From: Bacteroidota bacterium
Lineage (GTDB): Bacteria; Bacteroidota; Ignavibacteria; UBA10030
NCBI GenBank assembly: GCA_021813905.1
Contig: JAKAJH010000020.1
Coordinates: 1-50,119 of the forward strand
Length of the DNA: 50,119 nucleotides
Direction of reading: 5' to 3'
Shown here: piece by piece, positions 21,353 through 26,928 of the stretch
How positions within the stretch are numbered: position 1 is the first letter of the stretch
Layout: the number at the start of each line of letters is the position of its first letter
Program-made: the position numbers and the translations under genes
Notes under the pieces: model-generated
Database searches by the model: none
What the model saw: only the letters and a program-made list of their open reading frames with translations
What the model was told of the DNA's origin: nothing

Positions 21353-24139
21353 CTAATGGGCCTCGAGCCAGTTGGCGCCGACGCCGACGTCGACCTCCAC
21401 CGGCACGCACAGTGTCAGCGCCTCCGACATGCATCCCTGCACCAGCGTCCGCATCTCGCTCTCTTCCCGTTCCGGCACTTCACAGACGAGCTCGTCATGC
21501 ACCTGCAGGATGAGCCGGCTTTGCAGTCCGTGCTCTCGGATCCGACGGTCCAACCGGACCATGGCAACCTTGATCATGTCTGCGGCTGTGCCCTGAATGG
21601 GCATGTTGATCGCCTGCCGCTCGGCGTTCTGGCGGACGGTCTGGTTCGCGTTCCGGATCTCGGCAATATACCGCCGGCGTCCGAGAAGGGTGGACACGTA
21701 TCCGACGCGCCGCGCCGATTCGATCGTGTCGTGGATATACTGCTGTACGCCGGGGAAGCGCTCGAAGTAGCGGGCGATGATGTCGCGTGCCTCGGTCTGG
21801 CTGATCTCCAGGCGTGAGGCCAGGCCGAAGGCCCCGATGCCGTACATGATGCCGAAGTTCACTTCCTTCGCCTTGCGCCGCATGTCGCGGCTGACCTCCG
21901 CGATGGGCACGCCGAAGACCTTGGCCGCCGTCGTGGCGTGAATGTCCTCGCGGTTCCGGAATGCCTCCGCCAATCCCTCGTCACCCGACACGTGCGCCAT
22001 CACCCGCAGCTCGATCTGAGAATAATCCGCCGAAAGGATGCGGGCTCCGGGCCGGCCGGGAATGAATGCCCGGCGGATGGACCGGCCGATCTCGGTGCGG
22101 ATGGGGATATTCTGCAGATTCGGGTCGCTGCTCGAGAGCCGTCCGGTGGCGGCAACCGTCTGGTTGAAGGAGGTATGCACCCGGCCCGTCTTCGGATCCA
22201 CCAGGGCGGGCAGCGCGTCGACGTACGTTGATTTCAGCTTCGTGAGCTGACGATATTCGAGCAGCGTGCCGATGATCGGATGTTCCGAACGAAGCGACTC
22301 GAGGACGGCCACATCCGTGGAAAAGCCCGTCTTGGTCTTCCGCACCGGCGTGAGGTGCAGCCGGTTGAACAGTACTTCCGACAACTGCTGCGTCGAATTG
22401 ATATTGAACGGTTCGCCGGCCTGTTCATAAATCGATCTGGTGAGCGCGTCCAGCTGCGTGCTGAGCTCAGCGGACATGGTGCGGAGAAACCCGACATCGA
22501 TGGCGACACCGGTGCGTTCCATCGATGCGAGCACTCCCACCAGCGGATATTCCACGTCCTGCGCGAGCCGGCTCATTTCCTGCGCCGTGAGAAGACCGGC
22601 GAAACGATCCGCCAGGCGCATCGTCCAGTCCGCGTCCTCACAGGAGTATTCGGCGACCGCGGCAACCGGCACATCGCGGAGCGCCTTCTGCTCCTTGCCC
22701 GTTCCCGTCAGGTCCTCGTACGAGATCATCCGGTAATCCAGATATTCGGCGGCAACCGCATCGAGACCGTGCTTGCCATCGGCGCGAAGCAGATAGCTGG
22801 CCAGCATCGTGTCGACGAGGGGGCCGCGAACCTCGATCCCGTACCGCGAGAGCACGAGCATGTCGTATTTCAGATTATGTCCGATCTTGACGATTGACTC
22901 GTCCAAGAACAGCGCGCCGGCGATATCCGCGAATCGGACGGGCGTCATGCCGTCCGCGTCGGGTTGCGGAGCGGCATCGTCACCGAACAGACCCGTGCCG
23001 CCGTCGCGGGGAGGGGGGAGGATGGGAATGTAGTGAGCCTCGCGGGCTTCGATGCAAATGCTCACGCCCAACAGGTCGGCGTGTAACGCGTCCGTGGACG
23101 TCGTCTCCGTGTCGAACACGAACCGCCCGGCCGACTTCATCCTCTTGCAGAGTGACCGGAACTCTTTCTCGGTGGTGATGATGTGGTACGAGTGCTGATC
23201 CTGACGGATGTCGGAGAGCGGCCCGAATTCGACGGGCGCAGCCGCCGCCGGCTCTGGTGGTGCGGGCTTCGGCGCCGATGCGCCGGGATTGCGCAGGCGC
23301 GTCAGGAGCGAACGGAACTCGAGCTCCTCGAACAGCGCGGCGAGCGCCTCCGTGTCCGGCTCCTTTGCGCGCAGATCGTGATAGCTGATCTCGATCGGCA
23401 CGTCCGTCCGGATCGTCACGAGGTCTTTGGACAGGAACGCGAGTTCGCGGTTCGCCTCCAATTTTGTCCGGAGGCCTTTCTGCGGGATGTCGTCGAGATG
23501 ACGGTAGATCTCGTCCACCGACCCGAATTTCTGCACCAGGGGGATGGCGGTCTTCTCGCCGACGCCCGGAACGCCGGGCACATTGTCCGAGGTGTCGCCG
23601 GTGAGCGCGAGGACTTCCACCACTTTGTCGGGACTCACGCCGAACTTCTCCCGCACCTGTTCGATACCGACCAGATCCACATCCGTCCCCTGGCGTCCCG
23701 GCCGGTACATCGTGATGCGGTCGGACACCAGCTGCATCAAATCCTTGTCGGAGGTGACCAGGAACGTACGTGTTCCCTCCCGTTCCGCCTGGCGTGCGAG
23801 CGTGCCGATGATGTCGTCGGCCTCAAATCCTTCCCGTTCGACGGTCGGGATATTGTACGCGCGGATCGCCTGCTTGATGATCGGGATCTGCGAGGAGAGA
23901 TCGTCCGGCATCTTCTGGCGCGTAGCCTTGTATTCGGTGTATGCGTCGTGGCGGAACGTGGGGGCGCTCGTGTCAAAGACCACGGCAATGTGGTCCGGCT
24001 TCTCATCCTGCAGGATCTTGTTCAGAAAGGTGACGACGCCAAACACGGCGCTGGTGTTCTGCCCTTTGGCGTTGATGAGCGGCCGCTGGATGAACGCGTA
24101 GTACGCCCGGTAGGCAAGTGCCATCCCGTCCAGCAACAT
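21353..24139 (-). CDS. polA: DNA polymerase I, N-terminus rebuilt by an inserted island
   Basis: 928 aa. 5'-nuclease domain (1-about 285; LLDGMALAYRAYYAF, GFEADDIIGTLA, GDTSDNVPGVPGVGEKTA), 3'-5' exonuclease (about 325-500) with intact DTET, GHNLKYD and YSCEDAD motifs, so proofreading should be active, and the polymerase with motif A SADYSQIELR (about 703-712), motif B RRKAKEVNFGIMYG (about 754-767) and motif C QVHDE (about 879-883). The gene is interrupted upstream: its original first 21 codons lie at 25582-25644, separated by a 1446-bp island. The present start is ATG 24139 (GAAGGA 9 nt upstream) or ATG 24163, which overlaps the stop of the island ORF as ATGA; the latter adds eight residues with no family similarity. 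Everything needed for the nuclease active site remains. Confidence 0.93.
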   Translation of the reverse strand: MLLDGMALAYRAYYAFIQRPLINAKGQNTSAVFGVVTFLNKILQDEKPDHIAVVFDTSAPTFRHDAYTEYKATRQKMPDDLSSQIPIIKQAIRAYNIPTVEREGFEADDIIGTLARQAEREGTRTFLVTSDKDLMQLVSDRITMYRPGRQGTDVDLVGIEQVREKFGVSPDKVVEVLALTGDTSDNVPGVPGVGEKTAIPLVQKFGSVDEIYRHLDDIPQKGLRTKLEANRELAFLSKDLVTIRTDVPIEISYHDLRAKEPDTEALAALFEELEFRSLLTRLRNPGASAPKPAPPEPAAAAPVEFGPLSDIRQDQHSYHIITTEKEFRSLCKRMKSAGRFVFDTETTSTDALHADLLGVSICIEAREAHYIPILPPPRDGGTGLFGDDAAPQPDADGMTPVRFADIAGALFLDESIVKIGHNLKYDMLVLSRYGIEVRGPLVDTMLASYLLRADGKHGLDAVAAEYLDYRMISYEDLTGTGKEQKALRDVPVAAVAEYSCEDADWTMRLADRFAGLLTAQEMSRLAQDVEYPLVGVLASMERTGVAIDVGFLRTMSAELSTQLDALTRSIYEQAGEPFNINSTQQLSEVLFNRLHLTPVRKTKTGFSTDVAVLESLRSEHPIIGTLLEYRQLTKLKSTYVDALPALVDPKTGRVHTSFNQTVAATGRLSSSDPNLQNIPIRTEIGRSIRRAFIPGRPGARILSADYSQIELRVMAHVSGDEGLAEAFRNREDIHATTAAKVFGVPIAEVSRDMRRKAKEVNFGIMYGIGAFGLASRLEISQTEARDIIARYFERFPGVQQYIHDTIESARRVGYVSTLLGRRRYIAEIRNANQTVRQNAERQAINMPIQGTAADMIKVAMVRLDRRIREHGLQSRLILQVHDELVCEVPEREESEMRTLVQGCMSEALTLCVPVEVDVGVGANWLEAH
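24119..24135. repeat. 17-bp direct repeat, polA-proximal copy
   Basis: TGCCATCCCGTCCAGCA on the plus strand, identical to 25582-25598. On the minus (coding) strand it spells codons for LLDGMA of polA. The two copies bound the island exactly, in the manner of an att core, a long target duplication, or a microhomology used for recombination. Confidence 0.9.
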
Positions 24140-24159
24140 CAACAAAGGTCCTTCCCTCC

Positions 24160-24618
24160 TCATCTTTCGCCAATTCTGCCGTTCTTGCGGATCGCAAACC
24201 GGATAGCGGAGGGGGTGACGTTGAAGATTCGGGCGAGTCCAGCCGTTCGCCTGCTCCGAATCTCTTCGGCTTTACCGAAGCTGGTGCGATTGGTGTCAGG
24301 CATGGCGACGCTAATATTGAACCGCAGGAGGGACACAAGAAGCTCGAACCACTCGGCCTTGTCGCAGTGGTAGCGGTCTACCGGTCTGAAGCAGTAGCCG
24401 CTGGCATACTGGCTCGAGGCAATGGAGGTCTTGATGCTGGCCCATTTCGGCCGGTTGCAGGTGCTGGATGAGGCATCAAGGTCGAAAACATCCGTTCGGG
24501 TGTAGGCGCAGCCGAGCCGGTTGGCAATCCGTGGGTGCAGGATCCGCTGCACGCCGATGGGCACTTTTTCCCACTGCTTCTCCGAGGACATGTGATTGAT
24601 GATGAAAGCGGGGGTCAT
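24160..24618 (-). CDS. Island ORF of unknown function with C-terminal HTH-like segment
   Basis: 152 aa; no family recognised. The middle holds four Cys/His-Cys positions (LGCAYTRTD, SSTCNRPKW, SGYCFRPVDRYHCDKAEW) that could bind metal. The C-terminus, GLARIFNVTPSAIRFAIRKNG, looks like the helix-turn-helix that ends many small homing endonucleases and phage HNH proteins, but no HNH, GIY-YIG or LAGLIDADG motif can be pointed to. The start overlaps the upstream stop (ATGA) and the stop overlaps polA ATG 24163 (ATGA), so it is placed to couple translation into polA. Composition is less G/C-rich than polA. Confidence 0.6.
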   Translation of the reverse strand: MTPAFIINHMSSEKQWEKVPIGVQRILHPRIANRLGCAYTRTDVFDLDASSSTCNRPKWASIKTSIASSQYASGYCFRPVDRYHCDKAEWFELLVSLLRFNISVAMPDTNRTSFGKAEEIRSRRTAGLARIFNVTPSAIRFAIRKNGRIGER

Positions 24619-25235
24619 GGTGGACCGATTGTCTCAAAGATGAAGTGCCTCCGACCCGCTACGACATTTGTACCGCGGTCGAAGATCACACAGTAAATCG
24701 TTGTCCAATACTCCGGTCCATCTTCGTAATATGTCAGATCTGGCTGTTTTGGCTCACGGACCAAGAGGCTGTCGACTCCCTCTACGATGGTGTGCAACAG
24801 ATCAGCATCGAGTCTCCCTTTGAACCTCTCTCTAGTGGCGCGTTTGATGCCGGTATATTGTTCGGGCGTATATACAGCATGTTTCCACACGAGGACGGTG
24901 TCGAGCTTCTTGTACGCCCGAAACGTGGAGCGGTCCGTCTCATATCCATTGACATAGTAATGGGGGCGCTTCAATGACGCGAGATAGTAGACCCAAGTAC
25001 TGTTATTCAGCTGGCCATTCTGTCCCGGCATATTCTTGACGATTGCGAAGTCCTCCACATCAGGAAACCCATTGTTAACAGCTTGCGGCTTGCCCAAAGC
25101 ACGTCGAACTTCGTCGGTTGTCGCGCCGATTGGAGCTAGTCGATTCAGGTCATTTATGGATCTATTGCGGAGCTCCTTGTTCTGCGCTGGGGAGGTCGAA
25201 ACAAGGAAAAGGACCGCGAGCAATGCTTTCGTCAT
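24615..25235 (-). CDS. Island ORF: exported protein of unknown function, SmpA/OmlA-like start
   Basis: 206 aa. A short signal peptide (ALLAVLFLVSTSPAQ, cleavage near 18) is followed by LNRLAPIGATTDEVRRALGKPQAV, which resembles the 'I..G.T..EV...LG.P' repeat of SmpA/OmlA/BLIP-like folds. The rest (charged, Tyr-rich, YYEDGPEYWTTIYCVIFDRG) is unrecognised. No lipobox is seen. It starts 3 nt after the 73-aa ORF stop and ends with an ATGA overlap to the 152-aa ORF. Lower G/C than neighbours supports foreign origin. Confidence 0.65.
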   Translation of the reverse strand: MTKALLAVLFLVSTSPAQNKELRNRSINDLNRLAPIGATTDEVRRALGKPQAVNNGFPDVEDFAIVKNMPGQNGQLNNSTWVYYLASLKRPHYYVNGYETDRSTFRAYKKLDTVLVWKHAVYTPEQYTGIKRATRERFKGRLDADLLHTIVEGVDSLLVREPKQPDLTYYEDGPEYWTTIYCVIFDRGTNVVAGRRHFIFETIGPP

Positions 25236-25238
25236 TGG

Positions 25239-25460
25239 TCACCCCGCCATCTGTTTGTATTCAGTCTGATTATCCTCGAATTGAAGCCGTGCGCTCTCCA
25301 GCCACGGCGACACATCCGAGCGGTCAATCAAACCGCACAGCGTATCACCCCACTCGACCGAGGGAATGCGGCACAGGGCGGCGAAGATGGTTGCCTGTCG
25401 CTCATGTACATGCAAGGGGCGGCCCTGTGCGGACCGCCCCAAGCGGTGCAACCAGGTCAA
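25239..25460 (-). CDS. Island small ORF, unknown
   Basis: 73 aa from TTG 25460, which overlaps the stop of the barrel-like fragment as TTGA, the same junction as between the LytR_C and rsfS genes here. Its TGA lies 3 nt before the ATG of the 206-aa gene. No family recognised; composition is mixed, with no membrane segment (about residues 20-45 include ATIFAALCRIPSVEWGDTLC). A 10-bp hairpin (25416-25440) lies within its first codons. Coding is supported mainly by the tight stop/start chain; the start could also be upstream. Confidence 0.45.
   Translation of the reverse strand: MTWLHRLGRSAQGRPLHVHERQATIFAALCRIPSVEWGDTLCGLIDRSDVSPWLESARLQFEDNQTEYKQMAG
25416..25440 (-). other. Strong hairpin within the island
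   Basis: GGGGCGG and CCGCCCC form a 7-bp stem, extended on the minus strand by TCC/GGG (one G-U pair) to 10 bp with a 5-nt loop. There is no T-run on either side, so it is not an intrinsic terminator. It stands out in otherwise lower-G/C island DNA. Confidence 0.5.
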
Positions 25461-25564
25461 AGAGTGAGAATCACGCCGACGGAAGTATGCAGACTGCCAA
25501 AATCAACGAAGGTGGGCTCAATATAGTACTTTCGCAATTCAAGCGCAAACCCGTTCCGTAGCAT
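25457..25564 (-). pseudogene. Fragment resembling the C-terminus of an outer-membrane barrel protein
   Basis: In the frame opened by ATG 25564 the sequence reads 35 codons ending in ...SLHTSVGVILTL and a stop. Its two amphipathic strands (GFALELRKYYIEP; LHTSVGVILTL) look like the last hairpin of an outer-membrane barrel. The frame stays open back to the 17-bp repeat, so the fragment seems 5'-truncated at the polA junction. It may be the tail of the gene that preceded the 73-aa ORF in the island's source genome. Short, so uncertain. Confidence 0.4.
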
Positions 25565-25644
25565 ACCCGCACCGCGGATGATGCCATCCCGTCCAGCAGG
25601 AACAGCCGCTCTTCACTCTCTGTGCGCTTCCTGGCAGCAGCCAT
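25471..25644 (-). pseudogene. polA: Severed 5' end of polA (21 codons), running into the island
   Basis: ATG 25644 begins a frame whose first 21 codons read MAAARKRTESEER followed by LFLLDGMA, the usual start of family A polymerases; the intact polA resumes at LAYRAYYAF 1.46 kb downstream. From 25581 the frame enters the island and stops at 25471-25473 (57 codons). GGGAG lies about 10 nt before the ATG, so this stub may still be translated and could feed the downstream coupled ORFs. It follows the MFS gene by 33 nt, so polA was originally downstream of MFS. Confidence 0.82.
25582..25598. repeat. 17-bp direct repeat, distal copy
   Basis: TGCCATCCCGTCCAGCA, the partner of 24119-24135, 1463 bp away. 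It is the last part of the severed polA 5' end (codons for LLDGMA on the minus strand). The flanking bases differ (GGAACAG here, ACATCAA at the other copy), so identity stops at 17 bp. Confidence 0.9.
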
Positions 25645-25677
25645 ATCTCTCTTACTCCCGTTCGATCTTCGAAGGCT

Positions 25678-26928
25678 TCAGGACGTACCATCCAGCGGCG
25701 GCGTCGGCACGACGGCGATGCCGTCGGCGTTGACACGCGCCGAGGGCAGAAACTGGGTCAGGATGGCCGCGGAGAGCAGGATCGCCGCGGAAACGAAGAA
25801 GACATGCGCGAGTCCCATCCGGGCTGCCAGCAGGCCTCCGATCGTCGGCCCGGCCATATTGGCGAGGATGTTGAACGCGGAAGCGATGCCCATCACCGTC
25901 CCGCCGCGTGACTCCGGCGTATGCTTGCTGATGAACGAATACAGCGCCGGAAGAATTCCGCCCATGCAGAAGCCTTCGAGGGCGCGAAAGAAGATCAGCT
26001 GATACGCGTCCGTCGTGAAGCCCTGGGCGGCATAGGCGACAGCACCTCCCACGATGGCGTAGGTCAGATGTTTCTTCGCCCCGTGCCGGTCGTTGCGTTG
26101 CCCCCACCAGGGGGCAGAGAGGACCATGAAGAGTCCGGCAACCGAGAAGATCCCTCCCGCGACGGTCGCAAGGAATTCCTTGTTGGTGACCACCGATTCG
26201 ACAAACAGAGTGAAGATTGGCTGCACCATGAGGATGGCTGCCTGCGATACCACGATGATGATGAGCGCCATCCGAACGACGGGCGACCTCCATGTGAACC
26301 GAAGCCCCGCAAAGGGCGAAATGCTGACCGGCGTCTGCGGCTGCACGGATTCGGTCTCACGGACAAATCGGACGACGAGAAAACCCGCCAGCGTACACAA
26401 TCCCGCGACGATGAAGAAGATGGGGCGGTAGCCGAACGCATCGGCCAGCGATCCGCCGATCATCGGTCCGACTACCGCTCCGCTGGAAGAGGCGCTCGAG
26501 AGTACACCGATGGCGTATCCGCTCTTCTCGCGCGGCGTCGTGACTGAAACGAGCGCAAGTGCGGCGGAGACGAAACCGCTGATGGCGCCCTGGACGATGC
26601 GGAAGACGAAGACCATCTCCACCGTGGTGGCCAGTCCGATCAGCGCCTGCGAGATCGCCAGGCCGAAGATGGCGCGGACGGTCATCAGCTTCCGGCCATA
26701 GCGGTCGGCCATTGCTCCCCAGAACGGGACGAACAAAAAGGAAACGAAGAACGGTCCCGCGTAGACAATGCCGCTCCAGCGGACGACGGAATCTTCGCTC
26801 GCTACGCCCAGCTGTCGGATATAAAAGGGGAGGAAGGGGACGATGAGGTTCATCCCCATGATGGCGATGAACTGGGCAACCCAAAGGGAGTAGAGATTCC
26901 GTTTCCAGGGTTCGGAGACTTTGAACAT
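25678..26928 (-). CDS. MFS transporter (MdtG-like drug:H+ antiporter family)
   Basis: 416 aa with twelve hydrophobic helices. Seen: MNLIVPFLPFYIRQLGV in helix 1, loop motif A GAMADRYGRKLM between helices 2 and 3, GYAIGVLSSASSSGAVVGPMIGG in helix 5 (the antiporter motif C region), and a second motif-A-like loop GQRNDRHGAKKHL. This pattern fits DHA1 multidrug antiporters; the substrate is unknown. No Shine-Dalgarno site is seen; TATATT on the minus strand lies 11 nt before the ATG, suggesting a nearly leaderless mRNA. It is the upstream neighbour of the polA 5' stub. Confidence 0.9.
   Translation of the reverse strand: MFKVSEPWKRNLYSLWVAQFIAIMGMNLIVPFLPFYIRQLGVASEDSVVRWSGIVYAGPFFVSFLFVPFWGAMADRYGRKLMTVRAIFGLAISQALIGLATTVEMVFVFRIVQGAISGFVSAALALVSVTTPREKSGYAIGVLSSASSSGAVVGPMIGGSLADAFGYRPIFFIVAGLCTLAGFLVVRFVRETESVQPQTPVSISPFAGLRFTWRSPVVRMALIIIVVSQAAILMVQPIFTLFVESVVTNKEFLATVAGGIFSVAGLFMVLSAPWWGQRNDRHGAKKHLTYAIVGGAVAYAAQGFTTDAYQLIFFRALEGFCMGGILPALYSFISKHTPESRGGTVMGIASAFNILANMAGPTIGGLLAARMGLAHVFFVSAAILLSAAILTQFLPSARVNADGIAVVPTPPLDGTS

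Follow-up and report, generated by a model that had tools for sequence, protein, structure and literature searches.

A small island in the first codons of polA

The stretch of DNA considered here (50,119 nucleotides; hereafter, the window) is contig JAKAJH010000020.1, positions 1 to 50,119, of the draft assembly GCA_021813905.1 of a Bacteroidota bacterium (Ignavibacteria; UBA10030), and within it the polA gene for DNA polymerase I is interrupted near its 5' end by a small island. All genes and junctions of this locus lie on the minus strand. The restored polA (21353..24163) encodes 936 amino acids in a frame that is open to 21353, and its product comprises a nuclease, a 3'-5' exonuclease, and a polymerase domain. 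Since it is the only match to family A polymerases in the genome and a query with its nuclease part (the 5'-3' exonuclease domain) likewise gave a single match there, polA function has probably been kept.

The insert occupies 24136..25581 (1,446 bp) and is bordered on both sides by exact copies of a 17-bp core, TGCTGGACGGGATGGCA, which lie at 24119..24135 on the right, inside the restored polA, and at 25582..25598 on the left, with a repeat period of 1,463 bp. This direct repeat, which had been overlooked in a preliminary description of the locus, consists of polA's own codons for LLDGMA. When stretches of 200 nt at the two junctions were compared, their longest common exact word was these 17 bases, whereas none of 298 pairs drawn at random from the window shared more than 12. 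Genome-wide, the core was found at four sites with up to two mismatches, and its only exact occurrences are the two copies of the repeat.

Upstream of the insert remains the severed native polA start, MAAARKRTESEERLFLLDGMA (25582..25644), which ends in the left copy of the core and, when read from 25644, runs into a stop codon inside the insert. If the flanks are fused across a single copy of the core, they form MAAARKRTESEERLFLLDGMALAYRAYYAFIQRPL, a polA start of the native type. The insert thus swaps the native residues MAAARKRTESEERLF ahead of LLDG for MRREGPLLM, an island-derived replacement 5' end (24137..24163) in which the island reads ATG AGG AGG GAA GGA CCT TTG TTG ATG directly before the LLDG codons. 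The DNA of the island deviates from its surroundings, with a GC content (55.0% compared to 60.9% for the window) below, and a tetranucleotide distance above, those of all 1,446-bp slices cut from the window in steps of 200 bp. It is well supported that ca. 1.4 kb of foreign-looking DNA lies inside the first codons of polA and keeps the gene readable with a start and codons of its own. The reading frame, the core repeat, and the comparison of the junctions all bear out the earlier proposal of a new, in-frame 5' end that polA receives from the island.

The target site in related genomes

We searched 100 genomes with the nuclease part of polA and obtained matches in 94 including the window's own, while six gave none. 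Leaving aside three partial matches (G019, G056, and G096) as well as G099, the 5' end of polA could be read in 89 relatives, which belong to other species than the host and include one genome of the same genus (L018). All 89 have kept a polA start of the native type with an uninterrupted target. The nuclease aspartate of LLDG, described earlier as retained by the island-bearing gene, is also present in each of them. The distance from the closest in-frame ATG to LLDG is 5-28 codons in 85 of the 89, with 8 codons as the commonest value (51/89). No in-frame ATG before LLDG was seen in the remaining four (L012, L187, L191, and L202), at least some of which would start at TTG or GTG.

The preliminary description had further held that only non-conserved 5' codons were lost to the insertion. 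This is wrong in part because the three positions ahead of LLDG are conserved among relatives, with R/T/K/S at -3, L/V/I/F at -2, and an aromatic residue (F/Y) at -1 in 88 of the 89 and C in the other. The lost residues RLF open the first beta strand of the nuclease domain.

Translation of the interrupted polA

The new start had previously been placed at ATG 24139, behind a Shine-Dalgarno (SD) sequence, and the letters are as described: ATGAGGAGGGAAGGA at minus-strand 24163-24149 is followed after 9 nt by ATG (24139-24137) and the polA frame LLDGMALAY, and the TGA of the last island open reading frame (ORF), orf152, overlaps the first ATG as ATGA (24163-24160). This ATG is probably not the main start, though, since it stands only one codon before LLDG, i.e., closer than in any relative with an ATG, whereas ATG 24163 lies nine codons before LLDG and thus within the usual range. 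We prefer ATG 24163 because of this codon distance, the restoration of beta strand 1, and the overlap with the orf152 stop. It is most likely the polA start, with TTG 24142 and ATG 24139 as alternatives, and more than one of these may be used.

An AlphaFold2 model of residues 1-288, built from 26 sequences (25 others and its own), reached a mean pLDDT of 95.5, with 81 over the first ten residues. Its beta strand 1 spans residues 7-12 (LLMLLD), and island codons account for L7, L8, and M9. According to this model, a start at ATG 24163 would let the LLM of the island rebuild the strand, while a start at 24139 would shorten it by L7 and L8. The best match in the PDB, the DNA polymerase I structure 6vde, has TPTLMLLDG at the same place, and methionine at position -1 was found in 5 of 80 polA genes from other bacteria.

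The overlaps point to translational coupling. ATGA joins orf206 to orf152 and orf152 to polA in the same manner, and we infer from this arrangement that polA translation is probably coupled to that of orf152 at the overlap. The SD-like AGGAGGGAAGGA within the replacement 5' end would serve the alternative starts, with matches of 6 bases for TTG 24142 and 5 bases for ATG 24139, and none for ATG 24163. In this genome, SD-like sites of at least 5 bases precede 40 of 145 genes (18.0 expected) and those of at least 6 bases precede 12 (1.1 expected), so that they are enriched but confined to a minority. This test covered 145 of 150 genes, filtered by GC content at codon positions, and replaces one on unfiltered ORFs (10/53 compared to 7/53); matches were scored against the canonical complement since the 16S end with the anti-SD lay outside the contig. 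Among the relatives with an ATG, 68 of 85 lack an SD of at least 4 bases before polA, and the SD-like site of the island is therefore plausible but not needed.

Contents of the island and its surroundings

The coding capacity of the island is oriented as polA throughout and comprises orf206 (24615..25235), which begins with a signal peptide-like stretch by eye, orf152 (24160..24618), and a doubtful ORF of possibly 58 aa with a TTG start (25239..25415) that matches neither NCBIfam nor PADLOC. The sole family match of orf206 is a PHROG of unknown function (E 0.024). Distant relatives of orf206 are few: outside its own genome, 2 of 293 genomes of the class and 2 of 394 genomes of the phylum have one, and one of the latter two matches is weak (E 3.9e-4). 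A viral relative was not confirmed, and two plasmid matches at E 0.8 were disregarded. In L038 (597-3540, genome G166), the relative of orf206 is accompanied by attC-like repeats and by small ORFs that look toxin-antitoxin-like by eye. It probably belongs to an integron cassette array, because a strict attC-like pair, along with partial copies of it, is found close by. Another relative (L220 1511-2083, genome G393) is found downstream of a LexA/S24 peptidase-type gene. Given these settings, the cargo of the island looks accessory.

For orf152, the search at E<=0.001 returned only orf152 itself (61 genomes), and no relative was confirmed in genome contigs, viral contigs, phages, or plasmids. 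At E<=1, weak matches appeared in 101 of 391 genomes of the class including its own, the best other one at E 0.0019. They are short or of low identity, several cross stop codons, and we treated them as noise. A structure prediction for orf152 from its single sequence (mean pLDDT 37.8) was not used.

Upstream of the native polA start lies an MFS-type transporter gene (25678..26928), assigned to this type by eye. Of 29 relatives, 12 have a related gene upstream of polA in the same orientation, and in seven of these, including the same-genus genome L018, it ends no more than 300 nt from LLDG. We take MFS-polA to be the older, uninterrupted gene order for this reason; the comparison was made in polA's orientation, and 4 of the 29 relatives have less than 1,000 nt upstream. 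A GC-rich, hairpin-like GGGGCGG...CCGCCCC without a subsequent T run was noticed by eye near the left end of the island (window 25418-25443). A scan for promoters and terminators gave nothing above chance.

The genome as a whole has four tyrosine recombinase matches (PF00589), all on contigs other than that of polA. One is an integron integrase (TIGR02249, 429 bits; L063 1964-3022, G000 contig C6) beside three repeat copies (102-1748) that look attC-like by eye. Another adjoins tRNA-Phe (L064 7992-9232, G000 contig C17) and may mark a second integrated element, while the remaining two have Xer-like length.

Origin of the insertion

We consider it probable, though well short of certain, that the island integrated at the 17-bp core and supplied polA with a replacement 5' end that is probably coupled translationally to its own genes. 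An element carrying 17 bp identical to the LLDGMA codons would have integrated at these codons of the chromosomal polA, severing the native start, which was left behind as a stub, and joining the rest of polA in frame to the element's end MRREGPLLM. Integration of a circle at such a core gives the order native 5' end, core, insert, replacement 5' end, core, and rest of the gene, which is the order at this locus. PolA would then come last in a compact series of genes, orf206-orf152-polA, with probable coupling at the ATGA overlaps, and its translation, most likely from ATG 24163, would restore beta strand 1 of the nuclease domain, with the SD-like site perhaps adding starts at 24142 or 24139. 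On this account an active PolA would still be made. We presume that a recombinase, acting in trans or since lost, brought this about, and not a circle that on a rare occasion recombined at 17 bp.

Several observations weigh against this scenario. ATG 24163 lacks an SD match, and the AlphaFold2 model shows that the strand is able to form but not which start translation uses. Beyond the PHROG of unknown function, neither an integrase nor any other family was recognized in orf152 or orf206 (Pfam E<=1, PHROGs E<=1, NCBIfam E<=5, PADLOC), no second copy of the island was found in its own genome, and none of the 89 relatives has an interrupted polA. In the search for a mobile form with its attP site, the core 17-mer was present in four viral contigs, none of which is polA-like beyond the core (two, L223 and L225, read LLDGMA in one frame, and neither continues as polA), and the left junction had no match in viral contigs. 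The island contains no sigma-70 promoter-like site (0.9 expected by chance) and no promoter pattern of the Bacteroidota type was found in it. The basis of all this is the assembled sequence of one genome. The mobility of the island is thus something that we infer.

The chief rival explanation, which is compatible with integration at the core and which we regard as a substantial possibility if not an even one, is that an ordinary insertion is seen here only because its end happened to give a vital gene a usable start, in which case no element would have evolved for this purpose. Among 200,000 random junctions, 49% offered some in-frame start without a stop and 25% an in-frame ATG. An insertion that killed the sole polA would probably go unseen. 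Readability alone is therefore no sign of design, since polA is probably vital and only viable insertions can be observed. The missing second copy or sister element and the lack of a recognized mobility gene fit this view as well. It is harder to reconcile with the 17-bp duplication, which exceeds those made by most transposition events, and with features that random junctions seldom provide: an SD of at least 5 bases was combined with any start in 5.0% and with ATG in 2.1% of them, and when 100,000 junctions were examined for ATGA in frame, 8.6% had one within 30 codons and 0.5% had one that terminates an ORF of 100 codons or more. These tests were made after the fact on features chosen for looking striking, and we read the ATGA overlap, the SD with ATG, and the beta strand-like PLLM before the core as mild signs of something beyond chance. 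The earlier suggestion that such a precise repair reflects selection or an element evolved to insert harmlessly went beyond the evidence, given that around half of random junctions are in frame, although the overlap, the SD with ATG, and the strand modestly favor more than chance.

It is also conceivable, albeit unlikely, that foreign genes were captured together with a foreign polA 5' end by homologous recombination through a short shared stretch. The resemblance of PLLMLLDG to the polymerase of 6vde would fit this idea, as would the overlap of orf152 with polA in the manner of a normal operon neighbor. However, the likeness to 6vde is weak given how rarely methionine occupies position -1 in other polA genes, the left junction would have to coincide exactly with the end of the same 17-bp stretch, which calls for a circle or two events, and no polA preceded by orf152 was found. 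An error of assembly, in which the island was wrongly joined into polA, is very improbable. The genome is a draft of 90 contigs and the composition of the island deviates, but both junctions are clean and fall on one 17-bp word, which is shorter than the usual word size of assemblers, and the polA frame is intact on both sides. Least credible of all is that RNA splicing or another form of excision restores the native MAAARKR form and makes the island start irrelevant, an outcome that had itself been named in the preliminary description as its refutation. Removal of 1,463 nt does give a perfect native frame, yet the ends are duplicated polA sequence, relatives have no intron at this place, and no intron family was matched when 23800-26000 was scanned against Rfam (E<=5). 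Introns are not known to duplicate sequence of the host gene at their two ends. The single match of that scan, to a human lncRNA family (E 1.8), was set aside as a chance hit.

Relation to known elements

Integration at the polA core, as favored here, can be compared with SXT/R391 elements, which use a core of ca. 17 bp in prfC and bring a new prfC 5' end together with a promoter. These integrative and conjugative elements are described as carrying int and xis and integrating site-specifically in the 5' end of prfC (PMC4344509). The polA island resembles them, as far as that description goes, in its site-specific integration at the 5' end of a gene and differs from these conjugative, int/xis-bearing elements in that no promoter was recognized in it. 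A published precedent comes from the genomic islands and prophages of dusA, where the element replaces the 5' end of the gene and the replacement supplies beta strand 1; they carry an integrase gene, their authors infer that function is kept, and the removal of one such island is described as part of a deleted region of 48.3 kb (PMC4482086). In comparison to that account, the polA island likewise lies in the first codons of a housekeeping gene, to which it contributes a 5' end and probably a replacement for beta strand 1. Unlike the dusA islands, it measures 1.4 kb, has no integrase that we could find, targets polA, and overlaps its target with its last ORF. SpyCI islands of streptococci also integrate at a gene's 5' end, that of mutL, which serves DNA repair, and their hosts are reported to show a complex mutator phenotype (PMC4129442), whereas polA stays readable.

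A likeness to integron cassettes comes from the orf206 relative near attC-like repeats elsewhere and from the integron integrase of the host. Unlike in cassettes, no attC-like pair was found in the island by a strict RYYYAAC/GTTRRRY scan, a weak test that found the L038 pair and missed the degenerate L063 repeats. The insertion of integron cassettes is not known to make a 17-bp duplication.

The polA island shares with the dusA and prfC types an identical core at both edges within the 5' coding part, an in-frame start with N-terminal codons, and a target that is intact in relatives. We class it as working like these elements in a stripped or trans-mobilized form and not as a proven member, because no integrase was recognized in it. 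Replacement of a 5' end has thus already been published for dusA islands, and it is polA as a target and the small size without a recombinase that appear unusual judging by the accounts considered here. None of the literature titles found names polA as an integration site, which applies to those titles and is no claim of absence from print.

A bolder version of integration at the core, which we consider doubtful, would have the island belong to a polA-specific family of mini-islands that are mobilized in trans and have evolved their polA 5' end. PolA would then be the coupled last gene of the element's operon, so that the element sets the amount of PolA and switches its N-terminus by integrating or excising.

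This one locus illustrates how mobile or captured DNA can lodge in a conserved and probably vital gene, right where a catalytic residue is encoded, and yet spare the gene by supplying a start and a beta strand anew. Should the element truly travel, its integration site would be a catalytic core of polA that selection on the host keeps constant, and the host would rely on passenger DNA to express a repair polymerase.

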